A stretch of DNA of 64,000 nt from Planctomycetaceae bacterium (GTDB lineage: Bacteria > Planctomycetota > Planctomycetia > Planctomycetales > Planctomycetaceae): positions 1 through 64,000 of the forward strand of contig JAHBXV010000011.1 in the NCBI GenBank assembly GCA_019636285.1. Reading direction: 5' to 3'. Below the pieces are notes generated by a model, which saw only the letters and a program-made list of their open reading frames with translations, made no database searches and was not told the origin of the DNA. The position numbers and the translations under genes were made by a program. Below are positions 1,719 to 27,163 of this stretch, piece after piece (within the stretch, counting starts at the first letter, position 1; each line of letters opens with the position of its first letter).

Positions 1719-2339
1719 ATGGTAAATTCTGCACGTCTCGTAAACAACCCCGAACCGGAGGATCTGGTCCGGCGCTTGAATAGCATCATTCGGCATCATC
1801 GCCGGACGAAGAACTATGCTGGAATGGCGATAGAACACGCGCGAATTGTGAGCGAAGTTCCGGCTACTTTGAAGGCCTCGCTCCCGCCGGGCACTTTTCA
1901 GCAACGGTTTGCACAGCGCAGTGAATTCTTTGACAGGACCGCGCGGTCGTACCTGATGATCGCGGTGGGCCGGAGTCAGCTCAACAGCGGAATCGCTGCT
2001 GTTTTTTTTGTCCGGGGTTCGCTCGGCCTGCTTCGGGAACGGCGAATCGGCTGGCTGCCGGAACCCGGTGAAATCACGCTGGGGAATGAGGACGCCAGCG
2101 AGGTGGTTCTCGTTGTGGCAATCGGCGAACTGTGGCTACGGATCGCCACGGCCCTGCTCGATGGGGAACTAATTTGCGATTCTCGAGGTCTCCGGCGATC
2201 CGCGGCAACGAAGGATCATTTGCGGACTTGCCTCCGAGTTGATGCGGACCAGTCCTGCTGGAAGCGGTCGCCGGTCGACCGTTCCCAAAAACTCCTGCCC
2301 GCCTGGCTGCCCGAGTGGCGCTATGGGGGTGCGAAATGA
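1719..2339 (+). CDS. unknown protein translationally coupled to the primase (206 aa)
   Basis: Not recognised. The protein is basic at both ends, and its middle (about residues 70-150) is more hydrophobic, with the stretches VVLVVAIGELWLRIATALLDG and GIAAVFFVRGSLGLL. It has no signal peptide. The ATG at 1719 follows AAGGA at about 10 bases; the in-frame stretch upstream to 1401 overlaps the HTH gene and the terminator and is rejected. The stop overlaps the next start as ATGA (2336-2339), which implies co-translation with the primase and a replication-linked role. A run of eight T residues (2002-2009) inside the gene could permit slippage. Confidence 0.65.
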   Translation: MVNSARLVNNPEPEDLVRRLNSIIRHHRRTKNYAGMAIEHARIVSEVPATLKASLPPGTFQQRFAQRSEFFDRTARSYLMIAVGRSQLNSGIAAVFFVRGSLGLLRERRIGWLPEPGEITLGNEDASEVVLVVAIGELWLRIATALLDGELICDSRGLRRSAATKDHLRTCLRVDADQSCWKRSPVDRSQKLLPAWLPEWRYGGAK

Positions 2340-5247: not shown

Positions 5248-6549
5248 ATGGCGAGCGTGAACAGAGAAGCGAACGGCCGATACCGAATTCAGTTTCTCGG
5301 TCGAGACGGAAAGCGACGAACGCTTCGGGTCGGCAAGATGCCCAAAAGCGATGCCACATACATTGCCACTCGGGTTGAGGCGATCCTGTCGGCCTCCGCC
5401 GCGGGCGTCTCGGTCGATCGGCAGACAGCGGAATGGCTGGGAACTCTTCCCGACGACTTCCATGGCAAGCTCGCGGGGGTCGGCCTGGTTGAATCGAGGA
5501 CTCCTCCAGAAGCCAAGATCATCCCGACCGTCTCCGGGCTCGTTGATGCCTACCTGGCCAAGCAGACTCGGCAGAAGGAAGCGACGAAGACGGTCTGGCG
5601 ACGCGTGAAGCGTCATCTGGTCGCGTACTTCGCCAATCGGCCGATCGATCAGATTACGACTGGAGACGCCGAGGACTGGATGAACTACCTGCTCGGGGTT
5701 CCGCTGGCCGAAGCGACTGTTCGTCGCGCCTGCGGGATCGCTCGCCAGTTCTTCGGCTATGCGGTCCGGCACAAGATGCTCGGCGAGAACCCGTTCGTTG
5801 CCAAGGAGATCAAGACGGCGGTCCGCGGCAATGAAGCCAAGTTCTTTTTCGTCTCTGCCGACGATGCCGAGAAGATTCTCGACGCCTGCCCATCGCAGGA
5901 ATGGCGGGTCATCTTCGCACTGTCCCGTTGGGGTGGCCTGAGATGCCCTTCGGAACACCTGGCGTTGAAGTGGGGCCATGTCGACTGGGAACACGGCCGG
6001 TTGATCGTTGAAAGTCCCAAGACGGCTCACCACCAGGGCCATGAGCGACGCGTGATTCCCCTGTTTCCAGAACTGCGGAAGGAGTTGGATGCCCTCTATG
6101 CGGAGGCCGATCCTGGCGAGTGGATCATCACCCGCTACCGGGACGCCGGCCAGAACCTGCGGACGACGTTCGAGAAGATCATTCTGCGGGCGGGCCTGAA
6201 GCCCTGGCCGAAGCTCTTCCACAATCTGCGGGCCACGCGGCAGACGGAACTGGCCGATCGGTATCCGGCTCACGTTGTCAGCCAGTGGATCGGGAATTCT
6301 GAGGCCGTCGCGCGGGAACATTACCTCCGGACAACGGACCAGCACTTCGACAAAGCGGCCGGAGAATGGACCACTGAAAAAGCGACGCAAAATCCGACGC
6401 ACAACCGGTCCGAATGGGGGCGAACCGACGCAAAAAGCGACGTAACCAAAATGAAGAAAACCCCTGAAAAACAGGGGTTTTCCGAGAAAACCAGTGGGCA
6501 CAACAGGACTCGAACCTGTAACCCCCTCCTTGTAAGGGAGGTGCGCTAA
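5248..6549 (+). CDS. tyrosine recombinase (phage-type integrase), 433 aa
   Basis: It would catalyse integration and excision of the element. An N-terminal arm-binding-like region (residues 1-70) is followed by a SAM-like core-binding domain (about 90-185) and a catalytic domain. Visible catalytic residues are R232 (GLRCPSE), K258 (SPKTAH), H325 and R328 (HNLR), W347 in the place of the second histidine, and Y359 (EHYLR). The ATG at 5248 follows AGGAAAGGA; the longer frame from 5116 lacks a site. The last 17 or so residues are encoded by the antisense of tRNA-Val, so the stop codon lies inside the tRNA gene. That geometry ties the recombinase to this attachment site, and the C-terminal tail probably changes on excision. 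Confidence 0.93.
   Translation: MASVNREANGRYRIQFLGRDGKRRTLRVGKMPKSDATYIATRVEAILSASAAGVSVDRQTAEWLGTLPDDFHGKLAGVGLVESRTPPEAKIIPTVSGLVDAYLAKQTRQKEATKTVWRRVKRHLVAYFANRPIDQITTGDAEDWMNYLLGVPLAEATVRRACGIARQFFGYAVRHKMLGENPFVAKEIKTAVRGNEAKFFFVSADDAEKILDACPSQEWRVIFALSRWGGLRCPSEHLALKWGHVDWEHGRLIVESPKTAHHQGHERRVIPLFPELRKELDALYAEADPGEWIITRYRDAGQNLRTTFEKIILRAGLKPWPKLFHNLRATRQTELADRYPAHVVSQWIGNSEAVAREHYLRTTDQHFDKAAGEWTTEKATQNPTHNRSEWGRTDAKSDVTKMKKTPEKQGFSEKTSGHNRTRTCNPLLVREVR
6457..6481. terminator. bidirectional hairpin terminator between integrase and tRNA-Val
   Basis: AAAACCCCTG (6457-6466) pairs with CAGGGGTTTT (6472-6481) around five A residues. On the minus strand the hairpin is followed by TTCTTCATTTT, so it works best as the terminator of tRNA-Val, whose 3' end is at 6495. 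It lies inside the 3' coding part of the integrase, so it may also end or weaken that transcript. Confidence 0.75.
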
Positions 6550-6568
6550 CCAATTGCGCCATGCGCCC
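6495..6568 (-). tRNA. tRNA-Val, anticodon UAC
   Basis: The minus strand folds as a full cloverleaf. The acceptor GGGCGCA pairs with TGTGCCC through one G-U pair. The D stem is GCGC/GCGC. The anticodon stem CCTCC/GGAGG carries the loop CTTACAA, giving anticodon TAC. The T arm is ACAGG/CCTGT with loop TTCGAGT. The discriminator is A. CCA is not encoded (CTG follows). The gene is intact although it is the integration site of the element, as expected when the element restores the 3' end. Confidence 0.95.
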
Positions 6569-10377: not shown

Positions 10378-10659
10378 GCCGCACGTTATACCACGCCCTC
10401 CGGGGTCGCGCACAAGGATCGACGACTGCTGATCGAGGACCGGCGATGCGATCGACGGCATTTCAACGGGCCGTGGCGACTCGAGACTCCTCTCCGACGA
10501 TCGAAGGATGAGCTTTTCGTCTTTTTTGATTGCAGCAGGGGGATTGCCACCATTCTATTGGGGCGCAAAGATTCACAGTGGAATCGGTCAGACCCCATTG
10601 GCGACCGACGATCCGCGGGCCCACAGTTCGACCTGATAGTCCTGTTGGAGTCCGCAACG

Positions 10660-11925
10660 ATGTCACAACTACGCTTTCGCACCCTGACACTGTCCCTCGC
10701 CGTCGGTTCGCTGCTCTTCAGCGGCTGCATCACCACGCGGCGTGTGGGGACCGGCTTTTCACAGCCGACGTTCCTTACCGCCCTGCCCGGCGTCGACTCG
10801 CACGTCGCGGTCCTGGAAAAAGGGGGGCGAGTTCAACTCATGAGTCTGGAGGACGGCGGCCAGTCGACGTACCTCGATCTGACGAGCGTTGTTCGTTCCT
10901 CCGAAAATGAACGGGGCCTGCTGGGGGTGGCATTCGCGCCGGACTTTTCTTCGTCCGGGGTCGCTTTCGTGGCCTACACCGCGCAGCCTGATGGCGCCTT
11001 GCATGTTGTCCGGTACGAGGCCACATCGCTTGATCCGCCCCAAGGCAACCCCGCATCGGCACAGCTCATTCTGCGGGTTCCGCAGCCGCAAGCGAACCAC
11101 AACGGCGGCTGGATCGGTTTTCGCGAGGCCGACCGACTGTATATCTCCCTGGGAGACGGCGGCGGCGACAACGATGACGACGCCGGACACACCGACGCCA
11201 TTGGCAACGGTCAAGACACCAATGTTCTGTTAGGCAAAATCCTGCGGATCAATCCGAACCCGGACGCGGACGCATTTCCCGACGATGCGGACCGCAACTA
11301 TGCGATTCCGCCAGACAATCCCTTCGTGGGAGTCGCTGGAGACGACGCCATCTGGAATTATGGGCTGCGGAATCCCTGGCGGTGCAGTTTCGATCGCCAG
11401 ACAGGCGATTTCTGGATCGCCGACGTGGGCCAGGGAGCACGCGAAGAAGTCAATTTTCAGCTTGCCAACAGCACTGGCGGTGAGAACTACGGCTGGCGGC
11501 TTCGCGAAGGGACGATTGCGACACCAGGCAGTGTCGGCGGCCCGCCACCGAGCGACGCGGTCGAACCGATTTATGACTACGGCCATGGCAGCGGCGGGTT
11601 TGAAGGCCGCTCCATTACGGGGGGCTATGTCTACCGGGGCCCCATCGCCGACCTCCAGGGGCAATACTTCTTCGCCGACTATGTCAGCCAGCGCATCTGG
11701 TCGTTCACCCGCTCGGGGAATACAGTCACTGACCTGACCGACTGGACCAGTCAGTTCCGGCCCGACGTGGGAACCATCGGCCGCGTCTCGTCGTTTGGCG
11801 AAGACAACATCGGAAACCTGTACATCGTCGATTTCGACGGCGATATTTTCCGCGTCACGGACGCGCGACGCGGCAACGAGTCGATGAGGAATGTCTCGCG
11901 GCGTCTCGTTCTTCCACGTCGCTGA
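10660..11925 (+). CDS. PQQ-dependent sugar dehydrogenase (glucose/sorbosone dehydrogenase family) lipoprotein, 421 aa
   Basis: The signal peptide ends in a lipobox (LLFSGC), so the protein should be anchored outside the cytoplasmic membrane. The body is a six-bladed propeller of the GSDH type: NERGLLGVAFAPDF, the catalytic-His motif ANHNGGWIGF, LYISLGDGGGDNDDD, LGKILRINPN, WNYGLRNPWRCSFD, IADVGQG and ENYGWRLREG. These enzymes oxidise aldose sugars with pyrroloquinoline quinone and pass electrons to a respiratory acceptor. The ATG at 10660 has GGAG about 9 bases upstream; the open frame running back to 9601 is the antisense of the oxidoreductase. The next gene, a multihaem cytochrome, converges on it. 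Confidence 0.87.
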   Translation: MSQLRFRTLTLSLAVGSLLFSGCITTRRVGTGFSQPTFLTALPGVDSHVAVLEKGGRVQLMSLEDGGQSTYLDLTSVVRSSENERGLLGVAFAPDFSSSGVAFVAYTAQPDGALHVVRYEATSLDPPQGNPASAQLILRVPQPQANHNGGWIGFREADRLYISLGDGGGDNDDDAGHTDAIGNGQDTNVLLGKILRINPNPDADAFPDDADRNYAIPPDNPFVGVAGDDAIWNYGLRNPWRCSFDRQTGDFWIADVGQGAREEVNFQLANSTGGENYGWRLREGTIATPGSVGGPPPSDAVEPIYDYGHGSGGFEGRSITGGYVYRGPIADLQGQYFFADYVSQRIWSFTRSGNTVTDLTDWTSQFRPDVGTIGRVSSFGEDNIGNLYIVDFDGDIFRVTDARRGNESMRNVSRRLVLPRR

Positions 11926-11973: not shown

Positions 11974-13125
11974 TTACTCAGTAGCCCTGACCGAACGCCG
12001 GACGCGCACCCAGTGGTCCGTCAACTCCAGATGCGGCGCGACCTCGACCGGCGGCATGTGACAGGGAAGGCAATTCGAATCGGCGGGACTGGCCGAACAG
12101 TGGGGAGCGGCTGGCTTCGCGCCGCCATGACACGCCTGGCATTTCTCGACGTAGACTCCGGGGGCTTTCCCCGCCGGTCGATGAGGGTTGTGACACGTCA
12201 GGCAGTCATAACGCATCGCGGCCGTCTTGCCATGGCTCTCATCCTGCCCCTGAAAACAGGGGCTCATCACGAATCCCACCGAGGCGAAACGAACCAGGAC
12301 CGTTCGTTCGGGATTCAACTCGTCGGCGGTCAACTGGTCGGCTCGGCGATGACATTCTCCACAGCGATTCACCGATTCCAGCGGAGGCAGCTTGTACCAC
12401 TGCTCAAGCTGGAACGATTGCCCCCCCTCCTGTGCGCGGGCGTGTTGTTCCCCGCCCGGGTGGCATCGCTCGCAGGTGACGCCCGTCATGATCCGGCTCT
12501 CGTCGATCACTCCATTCATTACGGGAAGGTGCGTCACATGACAGCCAAAGCATTCCAGCGTGGTCGCGTGATTGTGCGGCTCACCCAGCGAGCGGATTCC
12601 CGGTTTGCCGGTCAGATCGGCTCCCGGTGTCGCGCTCAGCAGGTCGGGCGGATACCACGAGACACTCCCTTCGATCAGTTCCGTTTCTCTCCGCGCGTTC
12701 GTGAGGAGACTGACAGGTGTCATCGCATGCTGGCCGGATCCGAACATCCAGTCGACACGAGCTGCTTCCGGGAAACCGTCCGATGCCATCCACAGCTCTC
12801 CACCGCGGTCCTCGAACGAGACCGTTGGTCCATCTGGAGTGAGCGGGTGGCTGCGACCGGCGAACCGGGAGAGAACCTGCGGATCGGAGCCACGAACCAG
12901 AGTCCGCTGGTGGGGCGCATTCGCGAAATCGTCGCATTCGCGCGGATGACAGGCGGCACACCGCTCGACGGCGGGAGCAAAAGAATTCCGGGCCCGCACC
13001 AGCGGAATATCGACTTCCTCCCGTTCGGCCCGAGCGACGAACCATGCCTGGAGCCCGCCCAGCGCGATCAGAAAACCAGCCGTCAGGCCAGCTCGCGTGA
13101 CGGGTGAGACGATCCGAGGCAGCAT
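11974..13125 (-). CDS. membrane-anchored heptahaem c-type cytochrome, copy 1 (383 aa)
   Basis: Seven CXXCH haem-binding motifs occur in order: CAACH, CFGCH, CERCH, CGECH, CLTCH, CQACH, CLPCH. An N-terminal hydrophobic stretch (residues 12-31) acts as anchor or uncleaved signal. Extra histidines beside several sites (CFGCHVTH, CLTCHNPH) could be the distal ligands of bis-His haems. The spacing and flanks match the cytochrome at 19075 motif by motif, and both end in HxDHWxRxR-like sequence, so the two are paralogues. The fold is likely related to the cytochrome c554 group. It is divergent from the TPR-CRTAC1 operon at 13390 and probably shares its control region. Confidence 0.88.
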   Translation of the reverse strand: MLPRIVSPVTRAGLTAGFLIALGGLQAWFVARAEREEVDIPLVRARNSFAPAVERCAACHPRECDDFANAPHQRTLVRGSDPQVLSRFAGRSHPLTPDGPTVSFEDRGGELWMASDGFPEAARVDWMFGSGQHAMTPVSLLTNARRETELIEGSVSWYPPDLLSATPGADLTGKPGIRSLGEPHNHATTLECFGCHVTHLPVMNGVIDESRIMTGVTCERCHPGGEQHARAQEGGQSFQLEQWYKLPPLESVNRCGECHRRADQLTADELNPERTVLVRFASVGFVMSPCFQGQDESHGKTAAMRYDCLTCHNPHRPAGKAPGVYVEKCQACHGGAKPAAPHCSASPADSNCLPCHMPPVEVAPHLELTDHWVRVRRSVRATE

Positions 13126-13389
13126 CCTGCCGTGCTCCGCGCGAATTCGAGATCATTGGGAAACTCGCCCGCGGATGCCTTCCGCTGGCTCGAACCTGAG
13201 CTATTGTCGCCGATTCGCGAGTGTCCGCAACCCGCGATCCGAACGGACCATCCGTGACGCGCCCCGGAATCCACCAGGCCCCAGTTTCGATCGACTGGTC
13301 CGACCCGGTAGACTAACAGTCGACGTCTTCCTGGCGACGACGCCTCAACCAACGAGACACCTCCTGGAATCGCCATCGAGCGGGCCCTC

Positions 13390-14502
13390 ATGAAATGGGT
13401 TTTGTGCCTCCTGTCGGGACTCGCGATTGGATACGGCCTGCAGCGAGCCTTCCGCGACGACGTTTCCGATCTGGAGCTTCGTGCCTCGCTGGCCTGGAAC
13501 GAGACAGACCTCGCCACGGCCGAACAGGTCTCACGCGTTGCCCTGGGAAGAAACCCCCAGTCGATCCGCGCGCGGGATATTCTGGGTCGCATTTCCGATG
13601 TGCTTGGCCGCCCAGAGATTCGCCTGGCGATGCAGCGAGATTCTCGAAGTGGAGCCCCCGCCGATGCGGCTGCTTTCGGGGAACTCGGAGCGACCGCCTT
13701 GACGGCCAACTGGCTGCGCGTGGCCGACGGATTTCTGGCGGAAGGAGTTAAACACTTTCCCGATGACGAGCGGCTGCAGCGCCAGTATGCCTCCCTGGCG
13801 GGGCTGCGGCTGAACGCCGACCAGATGCAATCGCGGCTGGTCAACTGGCAAAGCCATGGAACTCCGGCCCTGGATCTGGTCGCCATGGCGATCGGGCTTT
13901 ACGCGCTCGACGGGCGCGGGGTGGCCCCCGCCGAAACGTGGCTGCGCGCCGCGGTCGAAGCCGATGCAAACGACCTGGAATCGCGACTCGGACTGGCCCG
14001 CTGCCTCTTAGCGACCGGTCGCTACCAGCAGTGCGTCGTTCTGCTGGAACCGGTGCGTGACAGCGACCGCGCCCGCTCGCTCCTGGTAGTTGCCCATGTC
14101 ACCATGAATGACCTGTCCCAAGCCGAGGCCCTGTTGCCGACCGCGGAGCCGGCCGAAGATCGGGCCGATTACTGGTATGCGCGCGGGTTGCTTGCGCTCG
14201 AACGTCGCGACCTCGTGGACGCGGAGGAATCGCTTAAACAGGCAGTCTCCTTGCGACCGCTCTCCCCGTCCTATCGATCGCGCTACTGCGACGTGCTGCG
14301 CCGGCTCGACGAGACCGACCGGCATGACGAGCAGGTTCGACAACTGGAACTGGTGACGCGGATCCTGCAGAAAACACTTCTGTTCGGCACCACGAACGAT
14401 CTCTCGTCGCTCGGTGAACTGATCCCCCTCTGCAACGCGGTCGGCGCGAAGGAAGCCGCCTCGCTGCTCGCCGCCGCCATTCGTCCCCGGGAGCCGTCAT
14501 GA
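13390..14502 (+). CDS. tetratricopeptide-repeat protein of the cytochrome-CRTAC1 module (370 aa)
   Basis: A short N-terminal hydrophobic segment (MKWVLCLLSGLAIGYGL) suggests membrane anchoring facing outwards. The rest is alpha-helical with TPR-like repeats, for example LAWNETDLATAEQVSRVALGRNP, ALDGRGVAPAETWLRAAVEADAND and ARGLLALERRDLVDAEESLKQAVSL. TPR proteins are assembly or interaction scaffolds. The stop overlaps the next start as ATGA, so it is co-translated with the first CRTAC1 protein. It heads the four-gene operon 13390-19065. Confidence 0.82.
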   Translation: MKWVLCLLSGLAIGYGLQRAFRDDVSDLELRASLAWNETDLATAEQVSRVALGRNPQSIRARDILGRISDVLGRPEIRLAMQRDSRSGAPADAAAFGELGATALTANWLRVADGFLAEGVKHFPDDERLQRQYASLAGLRLNADQMQSRLVNWQSHGTPALDLVAMAIGLYALDGRGVAPAETWLRAAVEADANDLESRLGLARCLLATGRYQQCVVLLEPVRDSDRARSLLVVAHVTMNDLSQAEALLPTAEPAEDRADYWYARGLLALERRDLVDAEESLKQAVSLRPLSPSYRSRYCDVLRRLDETDRHDEQVRQLELVTRILQKTLLFGTTNDLSSLGELIPLCNAVGAKEAASLLAAAIRPREPS

Positions 14503-16274
14503 AATCGCGACTGCTCCTGATCGCGGGACTGGTCGTCTCGATGGCCGTTGGCGGGCTGCTCGGCGAGTGGCAGGATCGTCGCTCGACCTGGCAGGCCGAC
14601 CGCGAACTAATCGCCGATCTCGGGATCCGCCCCGAGCCGTTGGCAACCGAATCGAAGGAATCGTTCCCCGAATTCGCCAAGAACGACCTGCAATTCGTAG
14701 GCATCACGCCCTCGGAAACTGCATGCGTCTACGACAACGGCCCCGAAGGTCGATTTCACCTGGCGGAAACGCTCGGCGGAGGAGTCGGCGCGATCGATTT
14801 TGATCGCGATAGTTGGCCCGACATCGTCCTGATCGACGGGGGCGACCCGATCAATTGGCCCACGAACCGAACGTCGCGCGTGACGGTCCTGCGCTGCCGG
14901 GCTCCCGATCAGTTTCGTCCGGTCACGGCGCACACCCGCATCGACTGGACTGGATATGGTCATGGTTGCGCCGTCGCCGATGTGAATAACGATGGCTTCG
15001 ACGACATTCTGCTCACCGGTTACCAGCAAAGCCGCCTGTATCTGAACGCGGGCGACGGCACCTTCCAGGAAGCCGAGGATCTGCGCGATCTCGTCGGCGA
15101 CAAGTGGTGCGCCTCGGCCGCCTGGTCGGACCTGGACCTGGACGGCGATCTTGATGTCTACATCACCTGTTATGCCGACAGCCCGCGCACCCTGCCGACA
15201 CCGTTCTGCGAGGTCAAGGGAGTACGAATTCACTGCAACCCGCACTCCTACGGTCCGGTCAGCGATCTGCTGCTGGAAAATCTCGGCGACGGCACATTCG
15301 CCGATCGCTCGGAATCATCGGGGATCGCCCAGTACCGCGAATACGGTCTCGGCGTTCTCACGCCCGATCTCGATGGTGATGGGGTTCCGGAGATTTTCGT
15401 GGCGAACGATGGCGACCGGAATCTCCTGTTTCGGCAGACCGCCCCCTGGACCTATGAGGAGATCGCACTGGCGAGCGGAGTCGCCTTCAACGGCCAGGGA
15501 GAATCGATGGGATCGATGGGAGCGGCCTGCGCCGACTTCGACCGCAACGGCCAGTTCGACCTCTTCACGACCAATTTCTCGCGGGAGTCAAATGCTCTGT
15601 TCCGGCAGGTCGGCAATCTGGTCTTTACGGATGACTCGCAGGGAACGCTGATCGACCGCAGCAGCCGCGCCCTGGTCGGCTGGTCGGCCATTGCCTTCGA
15701 TGCCAATTGCGACCGCTTTCTCGATCTGTTCGTGGCGAACGGTCACGTCACCGAAATGCCAGGTGAAGAGCTGCGGCAGCGCGCCATTCTCCTCCGGGGA
15801 AGCGAACAGGGCCTGACCGAAGTGAGCCGCGCGGGACCATGGTTTGAGTACTCGTGGAATGCCCGCGGAGCCAGCCGGGTCGATCTCGACCGCGACGGAC
15901 TCGACGATCTCGTTGTCAGCCTGATCGATTCGCCCGCGATTGTCCTGCTCAATCGCTCGGTCTCGCCCGGGCACCGCGTGCAATTGCGACTCGTGGGAAC
16001 AACAGCCTCGCGTTCGGTCGAAGATGCCCTCATCGAAGTAACTTCAGCGTCCGGCCCCCAGATCCATCTTTCATCCCGGGCGGGGGGTTACCTTTCGACG
16101 CATGGGGATGTTCTCACCATTGGACTGGGGGCCGACACAAAGATCGAATCGCTCCGCATTCGCTGGCCGCGCGGGGACTGGCAGGAATTTCGCGATATTC
16201 CGGCCGATCGCCTGATCACGGTCATTGAAGGTCGTGATACGATCCTGGAATCCGACTTCGAACCCCGACGATAG
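14499..16274 (+). CDS. CRTAC1-family FG-GAP/VCBS repeat protein with ASPIC/UnbV domain, copy 1 (591 aa)
   Basis: An N-terminal hydrophobic anchor (residues 4-22) precedes repeated calcium-binding DxDxDG-type motifs: DFDRDSWPD, DVNNDGFDD, DLDLDGDLD, DLDGDGVPE, DFDRNGQFD, DANCDRFLD. These mark FG-GAP blades of a beta-propeller. The C-terminal 80 residues form the ASPIC/UnbV domain (SSRAGGYLSTHGDVLTIGLG, then LRIRWPRG). A Cys pair around residues 229 and 240 matches the conserved cysteine loop seen in this family and in copy 2. The family is extracytoplasmic and of uncertain function. It is coupled by ATGA to the upstream TPR gene and followed after 12 bases by copy 2. Confidence 0.9.
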   Translation: MKSRLLLIAGLVVSMAVGGLLGEWQDRRSTWQADRELIADLGIRPEPLATESKESFPEFAKNDLQFVGITPSETACVYDNGPEGRFHLAETLGGGVGAIDFDRDSWPDIVLIDGGDPINWPTNRTSRVTVLRCRAPDQFRPVTAHTRIDWTGYGHGCAVADVNNDGFDDILLTGYQQSRLYLNAGDGTFQEAEDLRDLVGDKWCASAAWSDLDLDGDLDVYITCYADSPRTLPTPFCEVKGVRIHCNPHSYGPVSDLLLENLGDGTFADRSESSGIAQYREYGLGVLTPDLDGDGVPEIFVANDGDRNLLFRQTAPWTYEEIALASGVAFNGQGESMGSMGAACADFDRNGQFDLFTTNFSRESNALFRQVGNLVFTDDSQGTLIDRSSRALVGWSAIAFDANCDRFLDLFVANGHVTEMPGEELRQRAILLRGSEQGLTEVSRAGPWFEYSWNARGASRVDLDRDGLDDLVVSLIDSPAIVLLNRSVSPGHRVQLRLVGTTASRSVEDALIEVTSASGPQIHLSSRAGGYLSTHGDVLTIGLGADTKIESLRIRWPRGDWQEFRDIPADRLITVIEGRDTILESDFEPRR

Positions 16275-16286
16275 ACCGGCTGATCG

Positions 16287-18008
16287 ATGAGCGACGGTAT
16301 GACGACTCCGCCCCTAAAGAGGCCCCCGCGATTCCGGACGCTCGCGATATTGGCGATCCCGTTCATCACGCTCTTTGGCGAGCCCCAACATGACGGACTG
16401 TCGGCCGACGAAATTCGCTTCGTCGACGCCGCCGCTGATGTCGGACTCGACTTTCGACATCACTCACCGCTGACTCCCGAACGGCACCTCCATCTTTTCA
16501 TGGGGTCGGGCGTCGGTTGGCTCGACTACGATGGCGACGGCTGGCCCGATCTGTACGCCGCCCAAGGGGCCGCCTTTCCGCGAACAAAGGCCACGGATCC
16601 TGCCCACAGCGACCAACTCTTTCGCAACCGCCAGGGGCAGTTCACGTCGGTCGCCGTGCCGGCCGGTCTTCAGGACTTTGAGTATTCCATGGGTGTCGCC
16701 GTGGGCGACTTCGACAACGACGGGTTTGCCGATCTCTTTGTTTCGGCCTACGGCCCCAACAGCATGTACCACAACAACGGCGACGGGACGTTTTCGCAAG
16801 TGGACGATCAGCCGATCCTCGCCGACCCGCGATTTGGCGCGAGCTGCACGTGGGCCGACATCGATGCTGACGGCGACCTTGATTTGTATGTGACGAACTA
16901 CCTGAAGCTCGATCCGGAGAACTATCCGCTTTGCAGTCATCAGGAACTGGGGAAGCGCTATCCCGGCGGTTGCCATCCCCGGTATCAGCAACACGAACAC
17001 GATCAACTGCTGCGCAACAATGGCGACGGCACCTTTTCCGATGTCAGCCAGGAATCGGGAATCCTCGCGGAAACGCCACGTGCCGGCCTGGGAGTCGTCT
17101 TGTGCGACTTCGACGACGACGGCGACACCGACTTTTACATAGCCAACGACACGGTCAACAACCAGTTATGGGTCAACGACGGAAAGGGAGCCTTTGTCGA
17201 CGACGCGCTTCTCATGGGAGTCGCCGTGAACGGATTCGGCGTCGCCGAGGCGGGCATGGGAGTTGTCTCGGGAGACATCGATCGAGACGGCCTCGTGGAC
17301 CTGTTCGTGACGAACTACTTCAACGAGACGAACACTTTTTATCGCAACGACCGCCTGGCCTTCACGGACGTGACGGCTGAATTTGGGTTGGCGGCCCCCA
17401 GCAAGCAGCGGCTTGGTTTTGGAACGTCGCTGTTCGATGCCGACAACGACGGCGCGCTCGACATCTTCGTCGCCAACGGCCACGTGCAGTCGTACCCTCC
17501 CGAACTCGATCGCAAGTCGCCGTTCGCGCAATTGCAGCAGTTCTACCACAACATTGAAGGCCGTCGCTTCGAGGACATCTCCGCATCGTGCGGTCCCTAC
17601 TTTCAGCAACCCAGAGTCGGTCGTTCCTCGGCGGTGGCCGACTTCAACAAGGATGGGAGGCCCGATCTGGCTGTCTTGCATTTGAACGATCGCCTCGCGC
17701 TCTTGCGAAACGAGACGGCAGCGACGGGCAATCGCGCCACTTTCCACTTCGTCGGGCGAACCAGCAACCGCGACGCAGTCGGAGCGCGCGTCGTATCCAA
17801 GATTGGTGACCGCTCGTGCGTGCAGTTTTGCCAGGGAAGCCAAGGCTACCTGTCGAGCGACTTTCGCCGGGTGAGCATCGCGCTCGGGACCGCGAACCAA
17901 GTCGATTCCATTCAAGTTCGCTGGCCGTCGGGCATGACAGAATCGTGGGCAGCCCTCGCGGCGGGAGAGGACCATGTCCTGCGGGAAGGGACCGGCCGTG
18001 CGGATTGA
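16287..18008 (+). CDS. CRTAC1-family FG-GAP/VCBS repeat protein with ASPIC/UnbV domain, copy 2 (573 aa)
   Basis: Same architecture as the gene before it. A hydrophobic N-terminal segment (LAILAIPFITLFG) precedes FG-GAP motifs DYDGDGWPD, DFDNDGFAD, DIDADGDLD, DFDDDGDTD, DIDRDGLVD, DADNDGALD and DFNKDGRPD, with NNGDGTF repeats between them. The ASPIC/UnbV domain is at the C-terminus (GSQGYLSSDFRRVSIALG, IQVRWPSGM). The paired cysteines before the fourth blade (YPLCSHQE, PGGCHPRY) are conserved with copy 1. The region upstream of residue 40 differs between the copies. The gene overlaps the following TPR gene by up to 35 bases. The repeat number and calcium ligands are clear; the function is not known. 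Confidence 0.9.
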   Translation: MSDGMTTPPLKRPPRFRTLAILAIPFITLFGEPQHDGLSADEIRFVDAAADVGLDFRHHSPLTPERHLHLFMGSGVGWLDYDGDGWPDLYAAQGAAFPRTKATDPAHSDQLFRNRQGQFTSVAVPAGLQDFEYSMGVAVGDFDNDGFADLFVSAYGPNSMYHNNGDGTFSQVDDQPILADPRFGASCTWADIDADGDLDLYVTNYLKLDPENYPLCSHQELGKRYPGGCHPRYQQHEHDQLLRNNGDGTFSDVSQESGILAETPRAGLGVVLCDFDDDGDTDFYIANDTVNNQLWVNDGKGAFVDDALLMGVAVNGFGVAEAGMGVVSGDIDRDGLVDLFVTNYFNETNTFYRNDRLAFTDVTAEFGLAAPSKQRLGFGTSLFDADNDGALDIFVANGHVQSYPPELDRKSPFAQLQQFYHNIEGRRFEDISASCGPYFQQPRVGRSSAVADFNKDGRPDLAVLHLNDRLALLRNETAATGNRATFHFVGRTSNRDAVGARVVSKIGDRSCVQFCQGSQGYLSSDFRRVSIALGTANQVDSIQVRWPSGMTESWAALAAGEDHVLREGTGRAD

Positions 18009-19065
18009 TTGGCTGCCCCATGGCAAGAATCATGCGTGCCGGCGATTGTTTCACGGCATGGCATGGCTGTTTGGTCTGATTCTGCCACTGCTGGCGAGCG
18101 GGTGCGGCGACTCGGCCGATCCGGATCGGCGTCATGGAAACTCGTCTGCCAACCGGCATGACGAAACGGAAATCGACTCGCTCCGAGCGCGGCTCGCGGC
18201 CAACCCGCAATCGGCCGCCACGCGCCTGCGGCTGGGGGAACTCCTGCGATCGGACGCTCCAGATGAAGCGATTTCGCTTCTTGAAAAGATTCCGGCTTCC
18301 GTCCCCGAACGAACCGCGGCACTTCAGCAGATGGCGATCATCCACATGCTGGCGAATCGTTATGAGTCGGCACGAACGGTTCTGCGGGAGTTTGTTGCTC
18401 GTGAACCCGATAACTTCGGCGGCCAATTGTCGCTCGCGGAAACCGAGTTCAACCTGGGAAATCCCGACGGCGCCCTGCCGCACGCGCTCGCCGCCGCGAG
18501 GCTGTCTCCCGACCGGCCGCGGACGTTTGTCTTGATCGCCGACATTCATGATGAGCGGCACGACTATCCCGCGATGATCGAGCCTCTCCAAACGGCGCTC
18601 GCGCTCGATCCCGACGCGTACGACGTCCATTTGAATCTCGCGTACGCGTGCCAGCGAACCGGTCATCTCGACCAGGCAGATACCGAGGCCGGTTGGTGTC
18701 TCGCACGTAAACCGGACGATGTTGCCGCCCTGCGCATTCAGGCCCTGGTCGCCCGCGACCGTGGTGACTTCCCGCGATCGCGACAGCTTCTCGACCGGGC
18801 TCTCGCTCTCCAACCCAACGATGTCGATTGCCGAATTCTGGAAGCCGACCTCTTGCTGTTCGAACGCCAGCCGCGCCAAGCGTATGACCGTCTGCGCGAG
18901 ATCGAAGACCAGCATCGCGAAACGGTCCGCTATCTGGGAGCCCTCGCCAGGGCAGCGGCTTCGGCCGGCGAGCGTGAGGAAGCGAAACGACTTTACGAGG
19001 CCGCCCAAGACCAGATCGCCAAGTCGCGACGCGCGGACGAAGACAGTTCGACGACCGCACCGTGA
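17974..19065 (+). CDS. tetratricopeptide-repeat lipoprotein of the cytochrome-CRTAC1 module (363 aa)
   Basis: A hydrophobic stretch ending in a lipobox (GLILPLLASGC, about residues 32-44) makes this a lipoprotein. At least six TPR-like helical pairs follow, such as ANRYESARTVLREFVAREPDN, DYPAMIEPLQTALALDPDA and DFPRSRQLLDRALALQPND. Three starts are possible: ATG 17974 (with GGAGAGG close by), GTG 17998, or ATG 18058, which gives a more typical lipoprotein signal. All but the last overlap the CRTAC1 stop, implying coupling. It closes the operon and converges on the second cytochrome with a 9-base gap. Confidence 0.8.
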   Translation: MSCGKGPAVRIDWLPHGKNHACRRLFHGMAWLFGLILPLLASGCGDSADPDRRHGNSSANRHDETEIDSLRARLAANPQSAATRLRLGELLRSDAPDEAISLLEKIPASVPERTAALQQMAIIHMLANRYESARTVLREFVAREPDNFGGQLSLAETEFNLGNPDGALPHALAAARLSPDRPRTFVLIADIHDERHDYPAMIEPLQTALALDPDAYDVHLNLAYACQRTGHLDQADTEAGWCLARKPDDVAALRIQALVARDRGDFPRSRQLLDRALALQPNDVDCRILEADLLLFERQPRQAYDRLREIEDQHRETVRYLGALARAAASAGEREEAKRLYEAAQDQIAKSRRADEDSSTTAP

Positions 19066-19074
19066 CGACCGGCC

Positions 19075-20220
19075 TCACCGCGATTGACCGTCGGAAGTCA
19101 TCGCGGGCGGATCGGATTGGTCGCGAATCCGAATCCAGTGATCGTGAAAGCCCGCCACTCCCTCGAAGGAGACCTTTGGCAGGTGACAGTCGATACAGCG
19201 GCTGGTTTCCTTCGGACAGGTCGTTCGGCCAGGTCCATGGCAGTCGAGACAGATCTGCTCGTAATGGACCACGTCGTGCGACACGGTTTCATGCGGATCA
19301 TGGCATGTCGTGCATCGCATCGCACCGTTGGATTCCGTGAAGCACCGGCTTTGCAGCAGCCCGGCTGGTTGGAAGCGGGGCAGGACCGGCGAATCGCGAG
19401 TCAATTCGCTCGGCTTGAGCGATTCCGGCAGGCGATGGCATTCGCCGCACATCCGGATCTCGTCGATCGCCTTCGGCCACCGATGTTGGACGTTCACGTC
19501 GGGTCCGGCTCGATCGGCGAGTTTCGCCCGCGCGTGGTTGGCGGCCGGGCCATGGCAGCTTTCACAACCGACATGAGGAATCAGTTCGGTCACTTCGTGG
19601 TTACGGATCATCGCGTGCGTCGTATGACAGCCGATACACCGCGCGAGCGACTTGCCATCCACGATCTTCCCGAACTGTTCCGCGTCTTCGATCGGTTCCG
19701 GAAGGTAGGGGTGTCCCACGGTCAGGTCGAGTTTGTCCGTGTCGCGGTAATACGTGACTCGGTGCTCCAGGCCGATCGTACCGCCATCGCGATGGGGCAA
19801 CAGCGTCAGAAACGTCACCGCGTGCGTTCCGGACCCCAAGGCGTACGTCAGCGGAAAGCGCTCGTCGCCGAACACATCGGGTAACGAGACCGCCACCCCA
19901 TCCGCGTCAACGTGGTAGCGGAACGTCCTGTCGCGGAGTTTGTCGTGGAACGTCGCGTCACGCAGCCTTTGAACGAACTCCGAGCGGGAGGTGAGCTCGA
20001 AGGTGCGAGCATGGCCGCTGGTCTCGTACTTTTCGGTGATCTCGCCATGGCAGTCGCGACAGGCCGCCGCCCCGGCGAAACCAGCCACATCTCGAATCTC
20101 GCTCACCGACGCGGATGACGAGCCAACCCCTCCCGGACGGACGATCGCGATCGCCAGCCAGACCAGTCCCGCGGCCAGCAGGACCAGCAGCCCGATCGTG
20201 AAAAGTTGCTTGCTCGCCAT
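19075..20220 (-). CDS. membrane-anchored heptahaem c-type cytochrome, copy 2 (381 aa)
   Basis: Seven CXXCH motifs occur in the same order and with similar neighbours as in the cytochrome at 11974: CRDCH, CIGCH, CESCH, CGECH, CTTCH, CLDCH, CIDCH. An N-terminal membrane segment (QLFTIGLLVLLAAGLVWLAIAI) anchors it. Additional histidines (CIGCHTTH, CTTCHDPH, HDHWIRIRD at the end) are candidate sixth ligands. The ATG at 20220 is preferred; an in-frame GTG at 20247 falls inside a terminator hairpin. It is probably an electron-transfer partner of the TPR/CRTAC1 proteins; the redox partner and direction are not shown by the sequence. Confidence 0.88.
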   Translation of the reverse strand: MASKQLFTIGLLVLLAAGLVWLAIAIVRPGGVGSSSASVSEIRDVAGFAGAAACRDCHGEITEKYETSGHARTFELTSRSEFVQRLRDATFHDKLRDRTFRYHVDADGVAVSLPDVFGDERFPLTYALGSGTHAVTFLTLLPHRDGGTIGLEHRVTYYRDTDKLDLTVGHPYLPEPIEDAEQFGKIVDGKSLARCIGCHTTHAMIRNHEVTELIPHVGCESCHGPAANHARAKLADRAGPDVNVQHRWPKAIDEIRMCGECHRLPESLKPSELTRDSPVLPRFQPAGLLQSRCFTESNGAMRCTTCHDPHETVSHDVVHYEQICLDCHGPGRTTCPKETSRCIDCHLPKVSFEGVAGFHDHWIRIRDQSDPPAMTSDGQSR

Positions 20221-20235
20221 GGACCGGCCCACGAA

Positions 20236-20254
20236 ACAAAAAGGCACGCTCTGA
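20236..20254 (-). terminator. intrinsic terminator of the prepilin-like gene
   Basis: GGCACGCTCTGA at 20243-20254 pairs perfectly with TCAGAGCGTGCC at 20259-20270 (12 bp, 4-base loop). On the minus strand the hairpin is followed by TTTTTGTTT (20234-20242). It lies 35 bases beyond the stop codon of the DUF1559 gene. The same bases hold the GTG that would otherwise extend the cytochrome at 20220. Confidence 0.88.
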
Positions 20255-20304
20255 TGTCTCAGAGCGTGCCCGGTCTGAATCCGAAGCGACTCGAATTGGC
20301 TTTT

Positions 20305-21402
20305 CTAGAACTCGCTCTGAACTTCGCCGCCCGCTCGGGAGTGGGCCGCATTCCAGACGTTTGAGTCGACGTTGTCCGACGCGAACTTAACCGCTCCGTC
20401 CGACATCAGCACATGCGCGCCGCCCGTATGGGCGCTCGATGCTGGGCGGAAACCGTCATGGACGCCTTCGTCGTTTTCGCCGTTCCAGGAAGACTGGTCG
20501 GCTCGCTTGTCGTTGGGCCCGCCATCACCGGTGATGATCGTGCCAGCGGGGACACCGAACTGCAACAGGCCACCGGGATTCCCGTTGCTCGTGTGGTAGT
20601 CAAGAGCGGGAGCGGGCGTGCCGCTACGTCCAAGAGTCCCCGTGACACCGCACGAACCTTCGACCATCCAGCGGCTGCAGCGGCCATTCTGGAGGCCCCA
20701 AGTGCCGCTGCCGCGAATCGCAGTGACTCGACCGCGGTAGACTTCGGCAACCGCAATCGTGTTACTCGTTCCATCCTTGATGTCCGACAGCGTGACCTTG
20801 GTCGCGCCGACGTTGTCCATCTGAAACACTGCCTTCAACCGCTGCGACGGGATGGCTCCCGATGCCGTGGTCGCGCTGAGCTTCGCCAACGAGCTTGCCG
20901 ATACGACTCCATCGTAATTGGTGCCAGCGTTCGATCCGCTGACGGCTGGCGTTTCGTCCGACGGGCAAATATAAGCAGCAAGCGGCGTTCTGTTGATCGT
21001 GCCCCACGAGTTCGTCGAACCGGGACAGGTCGCCTGCGAATGGTGATTGACAAAGTCAATCTGGTTGTAGGCGGGTGCCTGATCGATGAATGGCAGAATC
21101 ATCACGCGCCAGCTGTAACCGCCTTGATTGGTCCAGCCGTCGGGGCCGCCAAAACAATCGGTACCGTTATTCCATGTCTTGTAGGGCGGCAGGACGCTGT
21201 GCGTGTCCGCATAGTTGTGCAGGGCCAGGCCAATCTGCTTGAGATTGTTGCGGCACTGCGTCCGACGAGCCGCTTCACGCGCCTGCTGCACGGCGGGCAG
21301 CAGCAAAGCGATCAGAATCGCGATAATCGCGATCACGACCAGCAGTTCGATCAAGGTGAAGCCGTGACCACGACTTCTTTGAAAACCTGGGCGACGGTTC
21401 AT
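20305..21402 (-). CDS. DUF1559-family prepilin-like protein (type IV N-terminal methylation motif), 365 aa
   Basis: The start shows the prepilin signal [36 protein letters not shown] (split here for reading: cleavage after G, then FTLIE and a long hydrophobic helix). The following region carries [15 protein letters not shown], a hallmark of planctomycete DUF1559 proteins, and the end carries [12 protein letters not shown]. The ATG at 21402 sits behind a GGAG site; the upstream extension has none. These proteins are numerous in planctomycetes and may form pseudopilus-like or surface fibres, but their role is not established. The gene ends in a strong terminator and has a small lipoprotein gene upstream on the same strand. 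Confidence 0.93.
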
Positions 21403-21711
21403 GATGCAACTCCAAAATAGGCGAACCAAGAACGGTAAATAAGAACGCCCGATGATCGGGGCGCCACGACGTGAACTCACGGCCTCTGGAACGATGCCAA
21501 AGGATATTTCGACAAGTTTTGATGCAATTGTCACAGAATAACGGTGCGGTCCGGGGGAATCCAGATTGAATTATCCCCAATTCCGTCAGGATGATGCGTC
21601 AGATGCCGAAACAAAATCAATGAACAAAAAAACAGAACCCGCCCTCGAACTTCCGGACCTTGCCGGTTTTGAAGCCTCTGGTTCGGTTCGCGGATTGAAA
21701 GGGGCGCCCTA
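21403..21711. other. 310-base gap upstream of the prepilin-like gene
   Basis: Nothing coding could be supported. The region is A/T-richer than its neighbours, and its half nearest 21402 should hold the promoter of the minus-strand DUF1559 gene. I could not pick a confident -35/-10 pair. Confidence 0.4.
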
Positions 21712-21885
21712 CTATTTCTTCCCGCCAAACTGCTTGGCGTACTCGGGATCACTCCCCAACTCTTCCGGGGCTGGCGCGACCTTCTCTGGCGGAACATTTG
21801 CGTTGGGGTTGGATTTACCGCAGCCGACCATTCCCAGCGAAATGACGGCAGCCAGCAGCAGACACAAGGTAGACAATACTTTCAC
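21712..21885 (-). CDS. small lipoprotein, 57 aa, GTG start
   Basis: On the minus strand a GTG at 21885, preceded by GGGAG at about 6 bases, opens a 57-codon frame. It begins VKVLSTLCLLLAAVISLGMVGC, a signal with a clear lipobox (GMVGC; written here in pieces: hydrophobic core LLLAAVISLG, then MVGC). The mature part is about 35 residues, proline- and charge-rich, ending PEYAKQFGGKK. Because it starts with GTG it is easily missed. Similar tiny lipoproteins commonly sit beside DUF1559 genes in planctomycetes, so the two may be functionally linked; that link is inferred from proximity and strand. Confidence 0.8.
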   Translation of the reverse strand: MKVLSTLCLLLAAVISLGMVGCGKSNPNANVPPEKVAPAPEELGSDPEYAKQFGGKK

Positions 21886-22181
21886 GTTGCAACTCCCGAG
21901 TTGTTAGAAAGCCAGTTCTCCACGTCCGGCCGCCGGCGGACATTGATTCTGAATCGACGACAATCAATGACCGGCAACCCACCACCTGGAACTTCCAGTG
22001 CGACTCATGTTTCAATTTCACGTCGGGGCACGATCCCCACGTCGTTTCTACTTCGTATCACAAGTGAATTGTCAAGAATCTGACAAGATTCGACTTGAAT
22101 CATGCCCAGACACGAGGACGAACGTCAATTGATCCTTCAAAATCACGACGCCGGCTCCGAAGGAGCCACTTTTTCCGTCCT

Positions 22182-24329
22182 TCAGTCCGCGAGAGTGTCG
22201 GCAATCGCGGTGGCGACGCGCGCCAAGTGATGCTCCGGGAATTCGTCGCATAGCTGGCGAAGCCGTTCTCCTGCCGACCTGGGATTGCCCCCTTCCAGAT
22301 TCATCATGGCCTCGGCGAAACCTGCTTCCGGCCGGTTGGGACTCTTCCGAAATGCCGCGATCGCTTCCTCGCGATGTCCCGCGAGATACGCGGCGACCCC
22401 CGTCAGGAATGCAGGATCGACCGCGGTCGCAGACTCTGTTCCCCAATTGAGTATCTTCTCAAGTTCATCGGATGAGAATCTCACCGGATCGGCCATTCGA
22501 GCCGCGTGGAATCGAAGAAGACTTCCCCGGCCGCAAAGTTTTCGCTCTCGATACCCCAGCGCCGCCTGGTTACTCGCGAACTCTTGTCGCACCTGTTCGA
22601 CATCGAAAGCGGAGAGGGCCCCCAGAACCTTGAGCGCGGCGAAGTTCAGATCCATCGCGCGAAAGACACCGGCCAGCCTCAGGCCTCCGCGCAGCATGGA
22701 ACGATGGGATGCCAATTCCCAGGTCTCGGCGCCAACTTCGCTCGCAGGGTCGTAGGTCCAACTCCCCAGGTCGACAAATCCGCGCAGCGACAGTGTCTGC
22801 ACGATCTGTCGCGCGCTGGCCGGATCACCCGCCTTGCCATAAACCAAGCTGACCGCATTGAGTGACAACGGCTTCCAGACCGTCGGTTCCAGAGCCGCGA
22901 TCACATCGACTCGCTCGCTCGGAATCACCAGCGCCGTGAGTCCCCAGTCGCGTGCCGGCTCCGACCAGCCTCCCCAGTCGCCATTCACGCGGCGGCGGGG
23001 CAGCCGCCACTCCCGAGACAGATCCTGCGTCAAAAGAACATGTTGCTCGAGGCGGTGATGGAGCAATGCCGAGGTCGGAGTGTCAAATGGCTGAAGCCTT
23101 GGCGGCCCCAGCCACGCCACCAGGCCCGCTTCCCGCGAACCGACGCAATGAGCCGTTCCCGCGAGTTGCGTTTCGGCGACCGACGCCGCGAATGCCGTCG
23201 GATCAATTCGTGGATCGATTCCCCACCCCATTCCGGCGGACGTCTGGCTCCAGGGGCGGATCGCGATCAGCAGGGCCAGCACGGCGGCCACTTTCCCCGG
23301 CAACCCTCGCCAGCGACGAACGGGACGCGCGACATCGACGCTCCTTGCGATGGGGGACACCGTGCCGATCAGCGGCGACGTCAGGTCCAGCACCAACAGC
23401 AGCACCGCCAGGGGTCCATTCTCCGATGAGGCAGCCGCCAGAACGTGAGCGGCACAAATCGGCATGATTGCGTACCCGGTCACTGTTTCCCGGCCGATCC
23501 GCCAGAGTCCCACCAACGTGAAGAGGACGATTGCGATCGCCTCGGCGGAGAGCGGGGCGTCCCACCAGGGCTGCCAGCCAGCCAGCCGGAGAATGGCGGT
23601 CCGTTCCACGAGTTGAGGGAACGTCACCACGGCCGAATCGACCCAGCCCCGGATTCCCGCCGGTGTCAGGCTGCCGCTGGCCAGAAAGACCAGACTTCCG
23701 ATTGCCAGGGCTTTCCAGTTTCGCCGCCGGGCAAGTAGCCCGATCGAGAGAACGGCTCCCACGATGAAACGCGGGCCGAGATTCGCCCAGACCGCCAGCA
23801 GGACGGCGGGAATCACAAGACTCCGACGATCCAACGTCTCCGGGAGCGACTCAAGGGCGCGAAAGAGCAGGACCAGCCCCAGGGCATCCCACAACAGCGG
23901 AACGGGTTCCCAGGCCGCATGGCTGCCGACCAGCGCCATCGCGACGAGGCCCGCGACTCCCCAAGGGTCGGCATCGCCGCGCGACAGGCCGCGCTTCAGG
24001 AGAAAGCGAGCCACGCCCAACGCGATAAACAGTTTGGCGGCCATCAGCGCCCCAGTGCCCAACATCGAGGCGATCAGGTAAGCCGGAACTCCGCTGAACC
24101 AGTCGGCTTCGGTGCCTGTCGTGCCGGCCAGAAGGTCGCTCGTTGGCTGCCAGCTTCCCGCGACGACAGCGCGGCCTTTGCTGAGCTCCCACCACAGGCC
24201 ATCTGCCCCGATGGGATGCAGGGCCGTGAGAATCGCGATCAGCCAGACGGCCGCGCTGGCCAGACGCCTGTCCGAGCCCCAGCGAAAACGATTCTCGGGC
24301 TGGGGTGAACTTCGTGTGCTATGCGTCAT
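22182..24329 (-). CDS. large multi-pass membrane protein with C-terminal helical repeats, unknown (715 aa)
   Basis: About ten to twelve hydrophobic segments fill residues 25-370 (for example WLIAILTALHPIGADG, LVAMALVGSHAAW, AIAIVLFTLVGLW, VAAVLALLIAIRPW). They are followed by a soluble domain of about 345 residues. The last 120 residues contain a TPR-like segment (AYLAGHREEAIAAFRKSPNRPEAG). The layout resembles membrane glycosyltransferase-like or O-antigen-ligase-like proteins of planctomycetes, but no catalytic motif was recognised. ATG 24329 is used. A gap of 154 bases separates it from the STAS gene upstream. Confidence 0.72.
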   Translation of the reverse strand: MTHSTRSSPQPENRFRWGSDRRLASAAVWLIAILTALHPIGADGLWWELSKGRAVVAGSWQPTSDLLAGTTGTEADWFSGVPAYLIASMLGTGALMAAKLFIALGVARFLLKRGLSRGDADPWGVAGLVAMALVGSHAAWEPVPLLWDALGLVLLFRALESLPETLDRRSLVIPAVLLAVWANLGPRFIVGAVLSIGLLARRRNWKALAIGSLVFLASGSLTPAGIRGWVDSAVVTFPQLVERTAILRLAGWQPWWDAPLSAEAIAIVLFTLVGLWRIGRETVTGYAIMPICAAHVLAAASSENGPLAVLLLVLDLTSPLIGTVSPIARSVDVARPVRRWRGLPGKVAAVLALLIAIRPWSQTSAGMGWGIDPRIDPTAFAASVAETQLAGTAHCVGSREAGLVAWLGPPRLQPFDTPTSALLHHRLEQHVLLTQDLSREWRLPRRRVNGDWGGWSEPARDWGLTALVIPSERVDVIAALEPTVWKPLSLNAVSLVYGKAGDPASARQIVQTLSLRGFVDLGSWTYDPASEVGAETWELASHRSMLRGGLRLAGVFRAMDLNFAALKVLGALSAFDVEQVRQEFASNQAALGYRERKLCGRGSLLRFHAARMADPVRFSSDELEKILNWGTESATAVDPAFLTGVAAYLAGHREEAIAAFRKSPNRPEAGFAEAMMNLEGGNPRSAGERLRQLCDEFPEHHLARVATAIADTLAD

Positions 24330-24483
24330 CGCCAACCCGAACCGATCGCGGGAATTTCCGCGAGCACGTTCGCTCGCGAACCCGCCATTCTCGGATTTTG
24401 CCGATCATCGGCAACCCGAAAGCCGTCGCCGGCCGGGCAAATGTCACGTTCTCGACGCGTCCCGCGAGAATCGCTCGCGCGAA

Positions 24484-26422: not shown

Positions 26423-27163
26423 TTACTCGGGTTCGGCAAGGGCTCGGTCGAAAGCGCTCTCCAGGTCGGTCAGCGATGGCGACGACTGCCGGCTGGGGAC
26501 GGGCATGGTCAGGCTCTTGCCCAGCGGAGTGCCGCGAGCGGGTTCGCCCTGGGGAACCTCGTACGAGGCCTGCTGGATGCCCGAGGAGGCCAGCGAGTCG
26601 TGGGCGGAGCGGGGCGTCGCGCGCGTCAAAGAGCCGTCGCCCGACTTCGTTCCGGGCAACGTCAACGTCGCGGATTTCGAGTAGAGCGCTCCGCTGACCG
26701 TATCGGAATAGCGGAGCCGTAGCGAACAGTTGGCCAGATTCGATCCCGGCCGCGTATAGGGAATGAAGATCTGGTACGAAGCGCCGACATTTCCCACGCG
26801 GAAGTACGTATTCCAGACATCCGCGGGAAACTCGAAAATGTGAATCGGTTTCTTGCGCTCTTCCTCGGTCCCGTGGTCATCAAAGACATAAACCTTCACG
26901 TCTCCATTGACCTTCATGGGTTCGGCCACGCCCATTCCGAAGAACAGAACCTGCCCCGCGAAGCCACGCGTCGGCAGACCCTGGGTGTCGCGACCTTCTC
27001 CCGGTTCCCACAGGCACATAACCTCCACGACCGGATGCCGGGCATCCACGGTACGGTATTCCGGCTTCTTGGCCAGGGACATCCGGGAAAGGTCCAACCC
27101 GGCGCAGCCCGCCAGCCCCATGGCCAACAATCCGACGATCAGCGGCATTTGGAAGCGAATCAT
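26423..27163 (-). CDS. lipoprotein coupled to the secretin (246 aa)
   Basis: The signal peptide ends in a lipobox (GLLAMGLAGC). The mature protein starts with charged sequence and continues with beta-strand-rich segments (VYVFDDHGTEEERKKPIHIFEFP, YQIFIPYTRPGS), then a Ser/Pro/Gln-rich tail of about 70 residues. I do not recognise the fold. Its ATG overlaps the secretin stop as ATGA (27160-27163), so the two are made together. A lipoprotein partner of a secretin suggests a pilotin- or accessory-like role, which is inference from position only. Confidence 0.78.
   Translation of the reverse strand: MIRFQMPLIVGLLAMGLAGCAGLDLSRMSLAKKPEYRTVDARHPVVEVMCLWEPGEGRDTQGLPTRGFAGQVLFFGMGVAEPMKVNGDVKVYVFDDHGTEEERKKPIHIFEFPADVWNTYFRVGNVGASYQIFIPYTRPGSNLANCSLRLRYSDTVSGALYSKSATLTLPGTKSGDGSLTRATPRSAHDSLASSGIQQASYEVPQGEPARGTPLGKSLTMPVPSRQSSPSLTDLESAFDRALAEPE

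Follow-up and report, generated by a model that had tools for sequence, protein, structure and literature searches.

Heptahaem c554-like cytochromes, TPR proteins and CRTAC1 proteins form a genomic partnership that is real, conserved and well above chance. We describe it from a window of 64,000 nucleotides of a Planctomycetaceae bacterium (contig JAHBXV010000011.1 of assembly GCA_019636285.1), where two cytochrome genes frame an operon of four genes and two further genes adjoin. The first-pass annotation had read six of these genes as cytochrome, TPR, CRTAC1, CRTAC1, TPR and cytochrome, and the open reading frames, the seven CXXCH motifs in each cytochrome and the Pfam domains agree with that order and its coordinates. 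The parts of the block are:

11974 to 13125, minus strand: cyt1, a heptahaem c554-like cytochrome of clade A with an N-terminal signal anchor and seven CXXCH motifs
13126 to 13389, no strand: divergent intergenic region between cyt1 and TPR1, 264 nt
13390 to 14502, plus strand: TPR1, an exported TPR-type protein (TPR_19), specific partner of CRTAC1a
14499 to 16274, plus strand: CRTAC1a, FG-GAP propeller with an UnbV/ASPIC domain
16287 to 18008, plus strand: CRTAC1b, FG-GAP propeller with an UnbV/ASPIC domain
17974 to 19065, plus strand: TPR2, a TPR protein with a lipobox-like LLASGC, specific partner of CRTAC1b
19075 to 20220, minus strand: cyt2, a heptahaem c554-like cytochrome of clade B with an N-terminal anchor and seven CXXCH motifs
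20305 to 21534, minus strand: DUF1559/H-X9-DG pseudopilin, true start probably near 21.4 kb
22182 to 24335, minus strand: MEM725, a polytopic membrane protein with a GT-C-like predicted fold and a TPR-like C terminus

Both cytochromes matched the Pfam domain Cytochrome_C554 (PF13435), at 30 and 32.5 bits against a gathering cut-off of 20.8, and each carries a second domain, Cytochrome_C7 in cyt1 (above its cut-off) and Paired_CXXCH_1 in cyt2. FG-GAP_3 repeats and a C-terminal UnbV_ASPIC domain scored above their Pfam cut-offs in CRTAC1a and CRTAC1b, which places both in the CRTAC1 family, and Pfam TPR domains were weak in TPR1 and strong in TPR2. Within the operon, TPR1 overlaps CRTAC1a by 4 nt and CRTAC1b overlaps TPR2 by 35 nt, with a gap of 12 nt between CRTAC1a and CRTAC1b; the pseudopilin gene lies 84 nt upstream of cyt2 on the same strand. 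Relative to the plus-strand operon, cyt1 is divergent and cyt2 convergent. Because the two cytochrome genes share the minus strand, the mirror image seen in the first-pass annotation survives in gene order and fails in orientation. Comparison of the 264-nt divergent region with loci L042 and L043 gave no convincing conserved motif, and the TPR2/cyt2 junction contained no special hairpin (z 0.39). Judged by eye, all six proteins have export or membrane-anchor-like N termini, in keeping with the suggested location outside the cytoplasm.

The block is conserved in relatives, which we found by searching 59 genomes with cyt2 as the query and then annotating the neighbourhoods. All six genes, with relative order and orientation kept, occur in two genomes of two other genera (G001 and G024), and in a third genus one genome (G111) holds four contiguous genes of the block on a short contig that ends there. 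In direct comparison the syntenic orthologues of the six genes are 47-69% identical, with cyt1 at 60% and 50% and cyt2 at 57%. The best-conserved member is the DUF1559 pseudopilin, which is 73-75% identical to its syntenic copies in L042 and L043, and its evidence is one of synteny, as distinct from linkage measured against genome-wide abundance; MEM725 (717 aa) is 39-44% identical to its own syntenic copies. Since synteny continues through these two genes, we take the block to run from 11974 to 24335. Beyond cyt1 or beyond MEM725, no matching gene was present in the stretches compared. Six genomes, representing five genera, have both cytochromes at a single locus (G000, G001, G024, G152, G095 and G099).

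Linkage was scored as a CRTAC1 gene within 8 kb of a family cytochrome, with the expectation taken from the UnbV count of each genome. The window's genome and its relatives together have 44 family cytochromes, and 16 of these had such a neighbour against 1.1 expected; with the three module genomes set aside, a linked pair was still found in 8 of 25 genomes against 0.85 expected (P 5e-7), probabilities that assume random gene placement. For contig scans with the cytochrome a broad alignment proved too divergent, and a narrower one was used. A further GTDB set of 80 loci was fetched by the cytochrome alone, and here 33 of 86 cytochromes were linked to CRTAC1; by locus, the counts were 17/35 in Planctomycetota, 12/31 in Acidobacteriota, 1/7 in Bacteroidota and 1/4 in Rhodothermota. 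Several Acidobacteriota have compact, co-directional cytochrome-TPR-CRTAC1 operons whose genes overlap or lie a few bases apart. We also found 39 cytochrome-TPR and 11 CRTAC1-TPR fusion proteins, and none in a search for direct cytochrome-CRTAC1 fusions. It might be argued that these are abundant planctomycete families meeting by chance, for TPR, DUF1559 and FG-GAP proteins are numerous in planctomycetes and the host genome alone has 12 UnbV genes. This is refuted by the recurrence of orthologous blocks across several genera and by linkage that greatly exceeds expectation, and the probability of a chance meeting is in our view negligible. The conserved partnership that the first-pass annotation had put forward is upheld by the block in G001 and G024 and by the linkage counts. 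Our literature search returned no paper describing the trio.

Within this partnership, TPR1 is tightly paired with CRTAC1a and, separately, TPR2 with CRTAC1b. Among 170 genomes of the order, 13 contain CRTAC1a relatives (E<=1e-110), and almost all CRTAC1a loci examined have TPR1 immediately upstream. These loci are often near DUF1559, membrane-protein genes and a clade-A cytochrome, and in one (L178) all five lie on one strand. Relatives of CRTAC1b (E<=1e-125) were found in 42 of the 170 genomes; the TPR2 homologue cluster comprised exactly the 8 CRTAC1b loci of our first neighbour set, and TPR2 adjoins CRTAC1b in most, or nearly all, of the further loci examined. Three loci (G152, G095 and G099) hold cyt1, the membrane protein, CRTAC1b, TPR2, DUF1559 and cyt2 without TPR1-CRTAC1a. 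Consequently, the mirror arrangement is one configuration of a modular cluster. MEM725, which lies outside the interval of the first-pass annotation, is the commonest neighbour of clade-A cytochromes and adjoins the cytochrome in most clade-A loci, more regularly than CRTAC1 does. As 12 of 19 clade-A cytochromes have no CRTAC1 nearby, and CRTAC1b-TPR2 occurs in one sampled genus without a family cytochrome within ~8 kb, the parts can work apart. In the host genome, too, most CRTAC1 genes have no family cytochrome beside them.

The first-pass annotation had also taken the block for a duplicated three-part machine and proposed trees as a check, and the trees lend that reading no support. The cytochromes are 30% identical to each other and the CRTAC1 proteins 34%, and TPR1 and TPR2 gave no significant BLASTP match; the TPR profiles align as TPR superhelices do, a similarity of the generic TPR type only. 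In the cytochrome tree, cyt1 falls in clade A (n=19; 99/96) and cyt2 in clade B (n=27; 100/96), old clades that are sisters relative to acidobacterial homologues, and each cytochrome has closer relatives elsewhere. CRTAC1a and CRTAC1b are each monophyletic (100), but the best tree does not join them as sisters; there, CRTAC1b groups with TPR-fused CRTAC1 proteins of other planctomycetes. An AU test does not reject a tree that forces them into one clade (p 0.32), so our claim goes no further than to deny a recent duplication of the two. A recent tandem duplication would make all three pairs reciprocal closest relatives, and they are not. The idea that a single cytochrome-TPR-CRTAC1 unit was duplicated, in tandem or inverted, could draw on the sister relationship of the cytochrome clades, on the AU result and on the alignable TPR profiles, but the closer relatives elsewhere of each cytochrome, the position of CRTAC1b in the best tree, a TPR similarity that generic repeats suffice to explain and the separate existence of the two CRTAC1-TPR pairs make such an origin very improbable. 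As judged from these sequences, the data support an ancient duplication of the cytochromes but not the duplication of three genes as a unit.

Predicted structures suggest what the cytochromes resemble. In the cytochrome model (pLDDT 83.8), haems 1 and 2 are separated by a beta-rich region; the top PDB match of the model was OcwA (6i5b; Foldseek E 4e-5, low TM 0.32), followed by MccA (4rkm), so that the cytochromes appear to resemble the c554/OcwA/MccA lineage. The passages of the OcwA report drawn on here describe a cell-surface terminal reductase with open sites at haems 2 and 5, and an extra beta-sheet domain shared with MccA, with haem 2 as the active site in both (PMC6703420). Counted from sequence, the cyt1 clade conserves 5 histidines capable of distal ligation and the cyt2 clade 6, against seven haems, which may leave one or two haems without a histidine ligand from the protein. 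Two non-haem cysteines are also conserved in the cytochrome clades; the idea of a copper site as in MccA was dropped, since the second of them did not align with a MccA cysteine. The MEM725 model (pLDDT 84.2) is GT-C-like and matched AftA, OST/STT3 and PglB at low TM (0.30-0.41); its transferase activity is putative.

Taken as a whole, the reading that we judge most likely is that the locus encodes an exported multihaem redox assembly with CRTAC1-TPR scaffolds, a proposal to which, with its accessory parts, the chemistry of cyt1 and the origin of the mirror order included, we give an even chance. The two non-equivalent heptahaem c554-type cytochromes would form the electron path, with a presumed direction of electron flow, and the CRTAC1-TPR pairs would act as calcium-stabilised propeller and superhelix scaffolds, keeping the cytochromes together or presenting substrate, a role that might fall to CRTAC1b-TPR2 in most related loci and to CRTAC1a-TPR1 in some. 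The pseudopilin and the GT-C-like/TPR membrane protein would be accessory parts. With fewer conserved distal histidines, cyt1 would be the likelier site of chemistry, in a presumptive catalytic role, and cyt2 would be more relay-like. The mirror order may have come about when two separate gene sets, TPR1-CRTAC1a with cyt1 and CRTAC1b-TPR2 with cyt2, became neighbours. Our direct observations are of gene content, conservation, non-random linkage, fusions, domain families and phylogeny; from them we infer a physical complex of the cytochromes, CRTAC1 and TPR proteins, bearing in mind that gene linkage can reflect co-regulation alone.

Two other functions have to be weighed against this assembly. 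In extracellular electron transfer, the cytochromes would carry electrons through the envelope to an insoluble or humic acceptor, displayed at the surface by the pseudopilin and CRTAC1. The nature of the best fold match, OcwA, and the pseudopilin in the block favour it, but that match is weak, and we noticed no gene for an outer-membrane porin-cytochrome at the planctomycete loci. Several of the carriers, moreover, are genera of ordinary aerobic marine physiology, such as Rhodopirellula, and we consider this function unlikely. Pfam found no porin domain in the block genes, and none stood out in the part of the recurrent planctomycete neighbours that was scanned. A TonB-type OMP_b-brl_4 barrel is often near the Acidobacteriota loci, but receptors of this kind abound in Acidobacteriota, and we drew no evidence from it. 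A multihaem enzyme of the NrfA/MccA/HAO type, acting on a soluble substrate (e.g., in nitrogen or sulfur oxyanion chemistry) with CRTAC1 as a structural propeller, would fit the c554-type domains and the conservation of fewer distal histidines than haems. It would also fit the placement of CRTAC1 between homologues of HZS alpha and beta-gamma, one clade of which bears c554 domains (PMC12758564). The cytochromes lack the CXXCK haem motif, however, and offer no recognised substrate-defining or MccA copper-site residues, and we view an enzyme of this type as doubtful, though worth keeping in mind.

Bacterial CRTAC1/UnbV proteins are common and, to our knowledge, have no settled biochemical role. 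Tentatively, and with rather less than even confidence, we suggest that CRTAC1-TPR with a heptahaem c554-like cytochrome makes up an undescribed class of exported redox machine in Planctomycetota, Acidobacteriota and part of Bacteroidota/Rhodothermota. Bacterial CRTAC1 would then serve a multihaem enzyme as a subunit that has a structural role or presents the substrate. If true, this would be the first testable biochemical role for bacterial CRTAC1. Its partnership with one heptahaem cytochrome family, both being found fused to TPR, gives the concrete hypothesis that propeller and TPR proteins are subunits of a multihaem redox complex, and Thalassoglobus, Neorhodopirellula and Stieleria are cultured carriers in which to test it.

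Several known systems share features with the block. OcwA and MccA have a haem core of the c554/NrfA lineage, and their beta-sheet domain may be compared with the beta-rich region here; they differ in having 9 and 8 haems, respectively, against 7, the TM-score is low, and the passages on them that we drew on mention no CRTAC1 or TPR partner. The porin-multihaem clusters of Verrucomicrobia (PMC5615132) are likewise multihaem gene clusters of the PVC group without a settled function, but they combine a porin with octahaem cytochromes, whereas no porin was noticed in our block. Human CRTAC1 (PDB 9etn) is a further member of the FG-GAP propeller family and matches in sequence (E 6e-13), although it stands outside any cytochrome or TPR context. 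In the literature searched, CRTAC1 beside haem protein genes was met only in passing, in the context of hydrazine synthase. Those hydrazine-synthase-like loci (PMC12758564) have a CRTAC1/FG-GAP gene next to genes for haem proteins, some of them with c554 domains, in Planctomycetota and others. Their haem partners are HZS alpha and beta-gamma, whereas the partners here are heptahaem c554-like cytochromes and TPR proteins, with TPR fusions; none of the block genes matched HZS alpha, beta or gamma subunits in Pfam or NCBIfam, which sets the block apart from a hydrazine synthase complex. That case shows CRTAC1 recurring beside haem protein genes in another setting.

Five further genes were noted in the window around the syntenic cluster that carries the two heptahaem c554-like cytochromes, cyt1 and cyt2.

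2315-4684 (+), Prim-Pol/DUF3987 primase-like gene
6494-6568 (-), tRNA-Val
about 10600-11925 (+), glucose/sorbosone dehydrogenase-like gene
27160-31170 (-), secretin of the type II/III secretion or type IV pilus type
57497-61084 (-), System II cytochrome c assembly protein of 1195 aa, a fusion of ResB with a CcsA-type part

On the left flank, the primase-like gene lies close to the tRNA gene, and they are possibly the remnant of a mobile element. The dehydrogenase-like gene is convergent with cyt1, and the locus comparison did not find it adjoining the syntenic copies of the cluster in L042 or L043. The secretin lies close to the DUF1559 pseudopilin, and the assembly fusion sits 33 kb past the cluster.

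Among the other loci, an additional heptahaem-type homologue of about 560-610 aa adjoins or lies near cyt2 in L045, L209, L210, and L212. In L103, from a metagenome-assembled genome whose record bears the putative name Candidatus Kuenenia stuttgartiensis, two cytochromes of the family are accompanied by a CRTAC1, a TPR protein, and a DUF1559 protein in about 8 kb. At L083, CRTAC1 is divided between two genes (13320-15770), the first encoding an FG-GAP protein of 599 aa and the next a distinct protein of 209 aa with UnbV_ASPIC; the same split is present in L201 and L202, and across these three loci it recurs adjoining cytochromes of both clade B and clade A.
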